Program-made: the position numbers and the translations under genes
From: Bryobacteraceae bacterium
GTDB lineage: Bacteria; Acidobacteriota; Terriglobia; Bryobacterales; Bryobacteraceae
Assembly: GCA_025055455.1 (NCBI GenBank)
Contig: JANWXD010000032.1
Coordinates: 1 to 41,430 of the forward strand
Reading direction: 5' to 3'
DNA: 41,430 bases
The notes under the pieces: generated by a model
Database searches by the model: none
What the model was told of the DNA's origin: nothing
Seen by the model: the letters and a program-made list of their open reading frames with translations, nothing else
Shown: positions 17,201 to 26,976 of the stretch, in pieces
Numbering within the stretch: the stretch's first letter is position 1
Layout of the letters: each line of letters starts with the position of its first letter

Positions 17201-18217
17201 TCACTCGGGCTCTTGCGCGGGCACTTCGGGCGCAGCGAGCGGACCATCGCCAGACGGGTCTGCCACCCGCGCCGCATGGGGAATCGGTCTGGCAACCTCC
17301 GGGGGCCACAGCCAGGAAGCCACGACCGACACGCTGAGGACGCCAGCGACGACCGCCAGCGATAGCGTGATCGGGACCTTGTAGAACTCCGAGATCAGCA
17401 TCTTCACGCCGACGAACCCCAGCACGATCGCCAGCCCGACGCGCAAGTAGTGAAACCTCGCCATCATGCCCGCTAGAACGAAATACAGGGCGCGCAACCC
17501 GAGGATCGCAAAGATATTCGATGTGTACACGATGAAGGGATCCCGGGTCACGGCGAAAATCGCCGGGATCGAATCCACGGCAAACACGAGGTCGGTCGCC
17601 TCCACGCACACGAGCACGAGCAGCAAAGGAGTGGCGCGCCACTGGCCCCCTTCTTTGACGACAAACCGTTGCCCCCGATAGTCCGAGACCGACGGAACCA
17701 TGCGCCGGAACAGCAAAAACACCGGGTTGCGCTCCGGGTGCACCTCGCTGGCTCTTTGCAGAAAGAGTTTGATCGCCGTGAAGACCAAGAACGCGCCAAA
17801 AACGTAAATCACCCAGTGGAACCGCTGGAGCAGGGCCGCGCCTACGACAATGAAGATGGCCCGCATGACGAGCGCCCCCAGCACGCCCCAAAACAGCACC
17901 CGGTGCTGGAAAGCCGGCGGCACGGCGAAGTACGAGAAGATCACCAGGAACACGAAGATGTTGTCCACGGAGAGGGCCTTCTCGATGAGGTAGCCGGTGA
18001 GGAATTCGAGCGCGCGGTGGCTGCCGAACCAGAAATATACCCCCACGTTGAAGGCCAAGGCCAAGACAATCCACACGACGGTCCAGGCCAAGGCTTCAGC
18101 CATCCGGACTTCGTGGGCCCGGCGGTGGAACACACCCAGGTCCAGCGCCAGCATGGCGAGGACGAACAGGGTGAACCCGACCCAGAGTAACGGTGTGCCG
18201 ATGGACTCCAGACCCAC
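17201..18217 (-). CDS. TerC/Alx-family integral membrane protein
   Basis: A 338-residue polytopic protein with about eight to nine helices. The hallmarks are acidic residues inside helices: LAMLALDLGVFHR (about 20-32), EKALSVDNIFVFLVIFSYF (about 79-97) and EATDLVFAVDSIPAIFAVTRDPFIVYTSN (about 204-232). FILRAL-like and GVKMLISEFYKVP segments follow. Proteins of this family are implicated in manganese export (Alx, MntP-independent) and in tellurite resistance clusters, and metal loading of secreted proteins has been proposed. No yybP-ykoY-type manganese riboswitch is recognisable upstream. The hydrophilic C-terminal tail (about 300-338) is Pro/Ala-rich. Substrate assignment as Mn is by family only. 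It lies 57 bases upstream of pheS on the same strand. Confidence 0.87.
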   Translation of the reverse strand: MGLESIGTPLLWVGFTLFVLAMLALDLGVFHRRAHEVRMAEALAWTVVWIVLALAFNVGVYFWFGSHRALEFLTGYLIEKALSVDNIFVFLVIFSYFAVPPAFQHRVLFWGVLGALVMRAIFIVVGAALLQRFHWVIYVFGAFLVFTAIKLFLQRASEVHPERNPVFLLFRRMVPSVSDYRGQRFVVKEGGQWRATPLLLVLVCVEATDLVFAVDSIPAIFAVTRDPFIVYTSNIFAILGLRALYFVLAGMMARFHYLRVGLAIVLGFVGVKMLISEFYKVPITLSLAVVAGVLSVSVVASWLWPPEVARPIPHAARVADPSGDGPLAAPEVPAQEPE

Positions 18218-24817: not shown

Positions 24818-25975
24818 GTGGAGTCGTACTGGCCCGAGGAGGGGGAACTGCGCTCGATCGAGCAGCAGGCGGCATCGATCGGCGACCCGGTCCGCAAACT
24901 CCGCTATCTGCGGGCCGCCATTCGGCTCCAGCCGCGGCTGGCGCCCCAATCTTCCCTGCGGGGCCAGCGCTATCCCAAGCCCTGGGCCTACCGGGCAGCC
25001 GCTCTCGTGGCGGCCTTGCTGGCGCTGCCGGCGCCGCCGAGCGCCGATGTCGATTCCATGCTGGTGAGCGTGCCCGCAAAGCCCAGGCCGCTAGCCGAGC
25101 CGCCGCCCACAGTCTGGCTCGTGGAACGGGCCGACGATTTCGAGCACTACAGCAACGGCCTGCGCATCGAAAACCTCTTCCAGGTGCGGGCAGAGCCGCG
25201 TGGCTATTGGCGATTCCCGCTCGACGGTCTCGAGCCGGGCGAGCCCCAGTGGTCCCGCGAACCCGCAGGCATCGTCTTTCACTCCACTGAAAGCCACGCC
25301 GCTGAGTTCGAGCCGGAGCGGACCGGCCCCTTGCGCCGTGCCGGTCTGAACCTTCTGGCCTACGTGCGCCAGCACCGCTCCTATCATTTCGTGGTGGACC
25401 GTTTCGGGCGGGTTCACCGGATCGTTTCCGAAAGCGACATAGCGCACCACGCAGGCTGGTCGGCGTGGTCCGATGGAAATTGGATCTACCTCGGGCTGAA
25501 CCAGAGTTTTCTCGCGGTGGCCTTCGAAACCCGAACCGAGCAAGGCCTGGCCTGCCTGACCGACGCTCAGGTGCGCTCCGGGCGGATGCTGACAGAGATG
25601 CTTCGCGCCCGGCATCGGATCCCAGCGGTGAATTGCGTCACGCACGCCCAGGTGTCCCTGAACCCGCACAACCGGCGGATCGCGTATCACACCGACTGGG
25701 CCTCGGGCTTTCCTTTCGCCGAACTGGGCCTGCCGAACAATTACGCCCTTTCGCCGGCCGCCGTGCTGCTGTTCGGCTTCCACTATGATGAGCGGCTGCT
25801 TGAGTCCGGGCGCCCCGGCATGTGGCAAGGTTTGCAAGCGGCCGCGCGCCGGCTCCTCGAAGAGGCCTCCGCACAAGGTTGGAGTGTCAAACAGTATCGA
25901 GCGGTGCTTCTGCGCCGCTATCAGCAATTGGTCGCGCTCGCGGCCGAGCGCGACCCGAAGGAGGCATGGCCTTGA
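24818..25975 (+). CDS. Membrane-anchored N-acetylmuramoyl-L-alanine amidase (PGRP/AmpD fold)
   Basis: A 385-residue protein from GTG 24818 (AGGGA about five bases upstream). The first 57 residues are hydrophilic and predicted cytoplasmic. A transmembrane helix (AYRAAALVAALLALPAPP, about 57-74) follows, giving a single-pass anchor. A 60-residue linker leads to the amidase-2 domain (about 140-310): IVFHSTES (zinc His155), YHFVVDRFGRVHRIVSESDIAHHAGW (about 189-214), VTHAQVSLNPH (His276) and AYHTDWASGFPF (Asp293 as likely third ligand). It would cut between N-acetylmuramic acid and the stem peptide in the periplasm. The next gene is the actin-like ATPase, with 10 bases of overlap or near contact. 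Confidence 0.83.
   Translation: MESYWPEEGELRSIEQQAASIGDPVRKLRYLRAAIRLQPRLAPQSSLRGQRYPKPWAYRAAALVAALLALPAPPSADVDSMLVSVPAKPRPLAEPPPTVWLVERADDFEHYSNGLRIENLFQVRAEPRGYWRFPLDGLEPGEPQWSREPAGIVFHSTESHAAEFEPERTGPLRRAGLNLLAYVRQHRSYHFVVDRFGRVHRIVSESDIAHHAGWSAWSDGNWIYLGLNQSFLAVAFETRTEQGLACLTDAQVRSGRMLTEMLRARHRIPAVNCVTHAQVSLNPHNRRIAYHTDWASGFPFAELGLPNNYALSPAAVLLFGFHYDERLLESGRPGMWQGLQAAARRLLEEASAQGWSVKQYRAVLLRRYQQLVALAAERDPKEAWP
25959..25964 (+). promoter_or_regulatory. AGGAGG ribosome binding site of the actin-like gene
   Basis: A perfect AGGAGG lies one base from the ATG at 25966 but seven bases from the in-frame TTG at 25972. Spacing therefore favours TTG 25972 as the functional start. The site is inside the last codons of the amidase gene, which implies coupled translation. 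Confidence 0.6.
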
Positions 25976-26976
25976 AAACGAATAGCGAACGGGTGTCCGC
26001 CGTCGGGCTGGACATCGGCACGAGCCGCATCGTCGTCGCCGCACGCGACGGCTCGGAGATCCGCTACCATGCGGACCTGAACGCCTTCGTCGCTCTCCCC
26101 TTCACGAAAATGACCGAACGCAGCCTGCGCCACGAGCAGGTTCCGCACTTGGTACAGGATGGGCAGATCTTGATCTACGGCGCCGCGTCGGAAAAATTCG
26201 CCGACCTGTTCCACCTGGAAACGCGCCGCCCGATGCGCGGCGGGCTCCTGAACTCCGCTGAGCCGGAAAGCCTCACCTTGATCGGACAGATCGTGCGCGC
26301 CCTCACCGACGGCGCCGACCGTTCGCGGCAGAAACTCTGCTTCAGCGTTCCCGCCCCGCCGCTCGGGGCCGAGGAAAGGGTCGCTTACCACGAAGCGAGC
26401 CTGCGGCGATTGCTCGAGGAGATGGGCTACGAAGTGATCTCCATCAACGAAGGGCTCGCGGTCATCTACGCCGAATTGGAGCAACACAACTTCACCGGCA
26501 TCGGCATCAGCTTCGGGGGCGGGCTGTGCAACGTCTGCCTGGCCTACCTGTCGGCGCCCCTGTTTTGTTTCAGCGTCCCCAAGGCGGGGGATTTCATCGA
26601 CGCCAGCGTCGCCGCCGTCACCGGCGAGCTGGCCACGCGCGTGCGCATCCTGAAGGAGACGTCGTTCCACTTCAACGGGAACTTCAGCCAGCAAGTCCAC
26701 CGGGCCTTGGCGGTGTACTACGACGAAATGATCCAAGCCGTGATCGCGGGCCTCAAGAACGCCTTTGCCGACGCCCGCAACGTGCCGAAGTTGGGGCGGC
26801 CGCTGCCCGTCGTGCTCAGCGGCGGCAGCGCGCTGCCGAAGGGCTTCCTCGAGCGTTTCGACAAACAACTAAAGGAGGCTGCGCTGCCAGTGTCTCTTGC
26901 GGAGGTGCGGCTGGCCAGCGATCCGCTCCACGCCACCGCCAAGGGAGCGCTCGTTGCGGCGCAAGCGGAGCTGTAG
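25966..26976 (+). CDS. Divergent actin-like ATPase
   Basis: A 336-residue protein of the actin/Hsp70/hexokinase superfamily (334 if TTG 25972 is used). Phosphate 1 is VGLDIGTSRIVVAARDG (about 13-29). Connect 1 is ISINEGLAVIYAELE (about 158-172). Phosphate 2 reads GIGISFGGGLCNVCLAY (about 177-193), where the usual Asp of DxGGGT is Ser. The adenosine motif is VVLSGGSALPKGFLERF (about 284-300). Size and lack of FtsA or MreB signature segments place it as its own branch, nearest in feel to ParM/MreB-like proteins. Cytoplasmic, no membrane helix. It is coupled to a membrane-anchored amidase with a cytoplasmic tail, suggesting a role in positioning or controlling cell-wall cutting; that is inference. 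Confidence 0.72.
   Translation: MALKTNSERVSAVGLDIGTSRIVVAARDGSEIRYHADLNAFVALPFTKMTERSLRHEQVPHLVQDGQILIYGAASEKFADLFHLETRRPMRGGLLNSAEPESLTLIGQIVRALTDGADRSRQKLCFSVPAPPLGAEERVAYHEASLRRLLEEMGYEVISINEGLAVIYAELEQHNFTGIGISFGGGLCNVCLAYLSAPLFCFSVPKAGDFIDASVAAVTGELATRVRILKETSFHFNGNFSQQVHRALAVYYDEMIQAVIAGLKNAFADARNVPKLGRPLPVVLSGGSALPKGFLERFDKQLKEAALPVSLAEVRLASDPLHATAKGALVAAQAEL

Follow-up and report, generated by a model that had tools for sequence, protein, structure and literature searches.

A Volactin-Family Actin Paired with a Probable Bitopic Amidase in Acidobacteriota: a Candidate Cross-Membrane Wall-Remodeling Module

Introduction

Does the overlap between a gene for a putative membrane-anchored amidase and a gene for an actin-like protein reflect a functional link, in which an actin inside the cell controls a wall-cutting enzyme on the other side of the membrane? 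This question is raised by a 41,430-nucleotide stretch of DNA (referred to here as the window), which lies on contig C71 of a 3.95-Mb genome from a member of Acidobacteriota that is close to Bryobacterales. An earlier note on this DNA had described the two genes and suggested that a cytoplasmic filament or switch might place or gate the enzyme through its inner tail. The pair is co-inherited, with the inner tail of the amidase nearly unchanged, in many soil bacteria of the phylum Acidobacteriota. This pattern suggests that the enzyme is held or controlled from the other side of the membrane by a filament inside the cell.

Organization of the Locus

The earlier note had an amidase gene followed by an actin-like gene at positions 24818 to 26976, and both genes sit there, on the forward strand, and overlap. 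The first gene (24818..25975) starts with GTG and encodes a probable bitopic N-acetylmuramoyl-L-alanine amidase of 385 aa that matches the Amidase_2 family (PF01510) with an E value of 2.9e-12. The second (25966..26976, counted from an ATG) encodes an actin of the Volactin family. A ribosome binding site had been noted in the last codons of the amidase gene, and direct reading of the sequence finds it there, as the Shine-Dalgarno motif AAGGAGG at 25958..25964 of the forward strand; it was the start codon downstream that needed correction. This motif lies 1 nt from ATG 25966 and 7 nt from TTG 25972, which overlaps the TGA stop codon of the amidase gene (as TTGA). Because its Shine-Dalgarno spacing fits, TTG 25972 is the better start and may be the true one; the two genes overlap whichever of these codons is used.

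The wider surroundings of the pair vary. Of the open reading frames of at least 120 aa between positions 18000 and 36000 of the window, setting aside the pair and the frames that overlap it, none recurred, at an E value of 1e-15, in over two of the volactin loci compared (best 80 of 280). The ddl and S41 protease genes, previously reported as convergent next door, are indeed present, but they are incidental neighbors that do not recur near the pair in the 80 loci. On the same grounds, ddl, S41, and sulfatase genes could be ruled out as parts of a wider wall-related cluster. A comparison with sites in genus g25 that lack the pair found the surroundings not conserved. The commonest neighbor after the pair itself is a likely secreted protein of ∼270 aa, encoded directly upstream of the amidase in one locus (L027:2882-3703); 16 of the named loci (best 80 of 280) hold a relative of it. 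The PADLOC defense models gave no match at an E value of 0.1, which ruled out an anti-phage defense system.

The Amidase and Its Probable Membrane Anchor

The window protein scores 47.5 bits against the Amidase_2 profile (cutoff, 26 bits) and is the sole match to that profile in its own genome at an E value of 0.001. In the AlphaFold2 model, two head helices are followed by a low-confidence linker (residues 40 to 51), a hydrophobic helix (residues 56 to 69; 24983..25024, + strand), a low-confidence stalk, and the amidase domain. The outer part (residues 98 to 330; 25109..25807, + strand) comprises, judging from the model and its fold matches, a W-x-V-E...YSNGLRIE region and the amidase fold. 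Structure comparison identified AmpD, AmpDh2, AmiD, and endolysin amidases as the nearest folds of the amidase domain, with Z scores of 16.0 for the endolysin amidase 6srt and 15.1 for AmpD (2y28). Across 66 aligned amidases, H155, H276, and D293, which we take to be candidate zinc ligands, are invariant, and E237 is kept in at least 90%. Of these four, only H276 and E237 are covered by the alignment to AmiD, where H276 aligns with a His residue and E237 with a Glu of the G-I-E-L-E stretch. All four are candidates for zinc binding or catalysis.

The layout of a cytoplasmic head, one transmembrane helix, and an outer amidase domain that had been proposed for this protein is supported by the AlphaFold2 model as far as the order of the parts is concerned, but the hydrophobic segment is short and only moderately hydrophobic, and the anchor is less than certain. 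According to the model and to hydropathy, this helix is a probable single membrane anchor; its best 19-residue mean hydropathy is 1.52, and its longest run free of charged residues and proline spans 11 residues. The corresponding hydropathy value is at least 1.6 in 72 of 92 amidases; among the phylum-wide relatives, one (L120) is also weak, at 1.44, and four (L119, L127, L129, and L130) have long hydrophobic helices, as judged by eye. An A-x-A motif is found near the helix in 31 of the 92 amidases, and a script search found none near that of the window amidase. The window amidase is likely, if not certainly, membrane anchored, and the anchor is the weakest point of the proposed layout.

A Conserved Cytoplasmic Head

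The part of the amidase that precedes the linker, its putative cytoplasmic head, is predicted by AlphaFold2 to form a helical hairpin (residues 8 to 36; 24839..24925, + strand), with helices at residues 8 to 19 and 24 to 36 and pLDDT values of 93 to 94 for residues 11 to 30. Its conserved core (residues 14 to 32) has the consensus I-E-x-x-A-x-x-I-x-D-P-V-x-R-L-R-Y-L-R, in which L28 is invariant and P24 is found in over 90% of the sequences in the 66-row alignment. In the same alignment, residues 13 to 33 carry 2.55 bits per column, nearly as much as the amidase domain (2.81 bits), versus 0.83 before the head, 0.84 in the linker, 1.45 in the hydrophobic helix, and 0.97 in the stalk.

The head pattern was found in 90 of the 91 amidases with a readable N-terminus (83 of 84 without identical sequences; the set includes duplicates from the same genome) and matches 0.4% of shuffled N-termini. 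These 91 are the 94 amidases with an assigned start minus three that are N-terminally truncated (L028, L030, and L074); 11 partial model matches and L090, whose stretch holds N, were left out of the count. On re-reading, nine of the 11 partial amidases proved to have the pattern, and L090 has the motif in another frame. L124 and L074 carry it with a different residue before the Pro. A looser form of the pattern caught a chance stretch in L069, and a tighter one again gave 90 of 91. The only exception is the amidase of genome G021 (L136), which lacks the motif in any upstream frame.

Conservation of the head had been expected if it served the actin-like protein, and it is borne out by these counts. 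The further expectation, that the head would be kept only alongside the actin gene, also agrees with the data, in that the only uncut amidase from a genome in which no volactin was found, that of G021, is headless, although this is a single genome, with an assembly that is 87% complete. Judging from reading frames, the downstream neighbor of the G021 amidase is a convergent sulfatase-like gene. When a profile of the head was run against 21 genomes, scoring at most 150 candidates per genome, it picked up the amidases in each of the 8 genomes that carry them, with E values of 6.3e-8 or better, and no other protein at a significant level; the next hit (E value of 0.0017) was a 40-residue frame. 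No convincing head-like motif was seen near eight loci that have unpaired volactins or are related to such loci, or near L064, in a search with a pattern that also missed true heads.

The Actin-Like Protein Is a Volactin

The product of the second gene had been described as actin-like, which Pfam confirmed and made more specific. It matches the Volactin family (PF25216) with an E value of 5.8e-79, scoring 266.3 bits (cutoff, 35 bits) over positions 2 to 321 of 321; the MamK, salactin, and syringactin models of NCBIfam match below their thresholds. Its structural model (pLDDT 92.5) has the actin fold, with the closest matches to MamK (Z score of 28.8; rmsd of 2.9 over 296 aligned residues), BeeR (Z score of 28.6), and MreB (Z score of 26.7). 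Of these, BeeR is described in the available text of its report as a three-stranded bacterial actin (PMC11929497). Among the matches listed, the nearest named relatives of the gene come from Bryobacterales and other Acidobacteriota, and a Haloarcula homolog shows 38% identity across 96% of the query length. A tree was built from 71 proteins; it has several long branches and is unsure in its details. In it, 60 paired and five unpaired volactins separate from two haloarchaeal, two phage, and two unpaired ones; the positions specific to the paired group follow relatedness. The residue at the phosphate-2 position, usually Asp in actins, is Ser in 59 of 60 paired, both haloarchaeal, and all 51 viral volactins examined. 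Because of this replacement, nucleotide cycling may differ in volactins.

The volactin is distinct from MreB. It did not match MreB_Mbl (PF06723) at E values up to 1, and the MreB of the window's genome is encoded on another contig (C79). MreB was found in 40 of 41 relatives regardless of the presence of the pair, so replacement of MreB by volactin was ruled out.

Co-inheritance and Arrangement of the Two Genes

The earlier note had made conservation of the pair in relatives a touchstone, and the pair is conserved well beyond the window. Among 237 genomes of the family, 150 carry both genes, 82 carry neither, three carry the amidase only, and two carry the volactin only (Fisher test, 2.5e-57, with relatedness ignored). 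In this sample, five of the 158 amidase matches (those in G336, G491, G497, G498, and G504; E values of 1.5e-6 to 3.1e-4) were set aside as weak and counted as absent. The exceptions are mostly fragmentary. In two of the amidase-only genomes (G005 and G420), the gene is broken at a contig end and has the head; the third is G021, with neither head nor volactin found. The volactin-only cases are a fragment at a contig start (G023) and a weak match (G523; E value of 2.2e-16), and a second search of both genomes found no amidase. In a set of 41 genomes (the window's own and 40 relatives), volactin was detected in 18 (including G016, a fragment below the cutoff), the amidase in 19, and both in 17. 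The two genes also come and go together within genera: g197, g198, and g25 each include genomes with both genes and genomes with neither, and in g12, G011 lacks both genes, while G480 and G482 have both.

Positions were listed for 125 of the 150 pairs. The genes are adjacent in 123 of them, 99 in tandem, with the amidase directly upstream, and 24 divergent; in the other two they lie on different contigs, with the volactin gene within 120 bases of a contig start. Among the named loci (best 80 of 280), 77 have the amidase upstream of volactin; two of these amidases (L028 and L030) are cut, three extend over more than one frame (L074, L090, and L092), and that of L064 lies about 1 kb upstream of volactin.

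The pair is found in other families of the phylum as well. In a sample of 297 genomes from across Acidobacteriota, 17 had a volactin above the cutoff, 14 had a strong amidase match, and 13 had both, adjacent in 12 cases; in the remaining one (G306), the two genes are kept on different contigs, head included. Weak matches (14 of 31 for volactin and 18 of 32 for the amidase) were set aside, and the amidase profile was applied to six candidates per genome, a depth at which an amidase could be missed. The one amidase found alone (G188) is a fragment at a contig start. The four genomes with volactin but without such an amidase (G102, G186, G305, and G329; G305 and G329 are 72% and 65% complete, respectively) were re-searched with all candidates scored, and no strong amidase match was found; G102 has a weak partial one (E value of 2.1e-5). 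Since these four of the 17 volactin genomes and some individual loci (L040, L053, L055, and L138) are unpaired, volactin can evidently do without the amidase.

Volactin genes with no adjoining amidase were seen in L020/L138, L021, L040, L053, and L055; L138 is very divergent, and the bins of L053 and L055 contain paired loci as well. Records titled Bordetella parapertussis (L085) and Acidimicrobiia (L048) carry the Acidobacteriota pair and are probably mislabeled metagenome bins.

Because the two genes co-occur and the motif is conserved, chance is a poor account of the association. Hitchhiking in an operon is likewise insufficient by itself to explain it, because 24 pairs are divergent and G306 has kept both genes unlinked.

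Proposed Mechanism and Alternatives

In our judgment, the two genes probably form a two-gene cross-membrane wall-remodeling module, in which volactin, as a filament or switch, attaches to the head of the amidase. As in its haloarchaeal relative, volactin would probably assemble into nucleotide-driven filaments in the cytoplasm, and the helical-hairpin head, of about 30 residues, would dock on it. Linker and anchor would pass this coupling across the inner membrane to the AmpD/AmiD-like amidase domain, so that the filament could place, cluster, or activate wall cutting at selected sites, and the amidase could in turn tether the filament to the membrane. We infer head-volactin binding, filaments in bacteria, membrane anchoring, and enzymatic activity, as well as the process served: as the pair is frequently missing from genomes that retain MreB, it would be an accessory module with a role in cell shape or cell separation rather than in core elongation.

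Linkage by itself does not show contact, and the 24 divergent pairs among the 125 listed would also fit two co-regulated genes that serve one process without touching each other, the head binding a third cytoplasmic protein instead. This arrangement appears unlikely, though it is the most credible of the alternatives: the head is missing precisely in the sole uncut amidase without volactin, no additional gene adjoins the pair in over 16 of the loci compared (best 80 of 280), and G306 has retained the two genes apart from each other. A lesser chance attaches to the view that the head and the hydrophobic stretch form an unusually long export signal, with the amidase released and its link to the actin only indirect. 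The 11-residue hydrophobic run of the window protein is indeed more like that of a signal peptide, the low hydropathy of the phylum-wide relative L120 points the same way, and so does A-x-A by the helix in a third of the amidases (31 of 92). However, a cleaved leader would have no need of a motif whose conservation comes close to that of the enzyme domain, the variable linker sets this motif apart from the hydrophobic part, long helices were seen by eye in the four phylum-wide amidases listed above, and the window amidase itself has no A-x-A by its helix that could be found.

Actins and sugar kinases share a fold. The closeness of the amidase fold to AmpD and the phosphate-2 Ser of volactin could be read as signs of a peptidoglycan recycling pair, in which a sugar-kinase-like enzyme of the ASKHA group, comparable to AnmK, acts on the products of an AmpD-like amidase. 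We consider this highly improbable: the second protein belongs to the volactin family, whose haloarchaeal member forms filaments, its nearest folds are actins (MamK, BeeR, and MreB), and a hydrophobic helix and a conserved head would make little sense in a cytoplasmic recycling pair.

Relation to Known Systems

The proposed module of volactin and amidase has partial parallels. In the MreB-RodZ elongasome, an actin filament is coupled to the wall machinery via a bitopic protein, and the MreB-RodZ entry 2wus is among the fold matches of the volactin model; MreB, however, is encoded by a separate gene, which is present in 40 of 41 relatives whatever the state of the pair. Haloarchaea have no peptidoglycan. 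Their volactins belong to the same Pfam family, and the plasmid-borne homologs are 36 to 38% identical to the window volactin over 96% of its length, but in the two plasmid loci read they have a gene for a DUF7139 protein upstream rather than an amidase gene. FtsN and PilN are not hydrolases. Each is, according to the available text, a bitopic inner-membrane protein with a short cytoplasmic N-terminus that is bound by an actin-fold protein, FtsA or PilM, respectively (PMC7613929). The tail is held there in the cleft between subdomains IA and IC, with the IC subdomain present in FtsA and PilM (PMC7613929), whereas the volactin model best matches MamK, BeeR, and MreB.

The statement in the earlier note that no two-gene system of this kind had been described was too wide, as BacA-LmdC (PMC10945521) and MreBH-LytE (PMC3817527) have been published. 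The bactofilin BacA is bound by the cytoplasmic N-terminus of the bitopic M23 peptidase LmdC, a conserved region through which the hydrolase is recruited, as stated in the accessible part of the report (PMC10945521). The two systems share adjacent genes for a cytoskeletal protein and a wall hydrolase and a conserved cytoplasmic N-terminal motif, in a protein that is bitopic by prediction in the present case. They differ in that the BacA-LmdC system joins a bactofilin, which does not belong to the actins, to an M23 peptidase that has a β-hairpin motif, whereas the pair described here combines an actin with an Amidase_2 enzyme that has a predicted helical hairpin. As far as its sequence goes, the pair would work like BacA-LmdC but is no member of that system, given that Pfam assigns one protein to Amidase_2 and the other to Volactin as its first match. 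In Bacillus subtilis, the published text at hand reports an interaction of MreBH with LytE, which depends on MreBH for its distribution (PMC3817527). There, as in Mbl-FtsEX-CwlO (PMC3817527), an actin homolog governs a wall hydrolase, which is what we propose for volactin; however, those actins are of the MreB type and LytE is an autolysin in the wall. The portion of that paper available to us gives no account of an inner head of LytE as a docking site (PMC3817527). The volactin pair works like BacA-LmdC, FtsA-FtsN and PilM-PilN, and MreBH-LytE and is a member of none of them.

No description of a volactin-amidase pair was found in the full-text literature searched, which is weak evidence of novelty, as preprints and most subscription journals lie outside it. 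In the same literature, the papers that name volactin deal with Haloferax or mention volactin among other actins, and the string "Acidobacteri" is absent from their main text as far as it was accessible.

Volactins beyond the Pair

In Haloferax, according to the parts of the report that were available, volactin forms dynamic filaments with tips that touch the membrane, matters for cell shape, and affects the change from rods to disks (PMC10869688). In both distinct haloarchaeal plasmid loci that were read, a gene for a DUF7139 membrane protein lies directly upstream of volactin (L139:2917-3825 and L140:2977-3900). The N-terminus of this protein has YIGEP before its first helix, which faintly resembles the amidase head and may be a matter of chance. 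Volactin relatives also turned up on 73 IMG/VR viral contigs and in two very large phage records, 485 and 595 kb long (L158-L230, L141, and L142). An upstream frame lies within 250 bases of volactin in 61 of these 75 loci; a hydrophobic segment is present in 25 of the 61, versus 10.5% of 607 other frames, with the caveat that related contigs do not count as independent. The frame upstream of volactin lacks such hydrophobicity in many other viruses. None of the 75 viral and phage loci yielded an amidase of this kind.

A broader reading takes volactins as a general filament class that is coupled to a membrane partner whose gene lies just upstream. The partner would be the bitopic amidase in Acidobacteriota, where the filament would drive or gate the enzyme directly via its head, the DUF7139 protein in haloarchaea, and a small single-helix protein in many viruses. 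We put this forward tentatively and regard it as somewhat less likely to be true than false. If it is true, actin and hydrolase would form a dedicated machine that has no intermediate of the FtsEX kind.

The best-known task of bacterial actins is to guide wall synthesis, and their known links to wall cutting, MreBH-LytE and Mbl with FtsEX-CwlO, operate via the MreB system. An actin devoted to a single amidase, acting via the enzyme's own short tail, would be a simpler wiring, if it proves true. The putative docking motif, of 20 residues, is open to mutation, so that the mechanism can be tested directly. With the pair, a family of filaments that owes its name to archaea gains a concrete partner in a phylum of walled bacteria.
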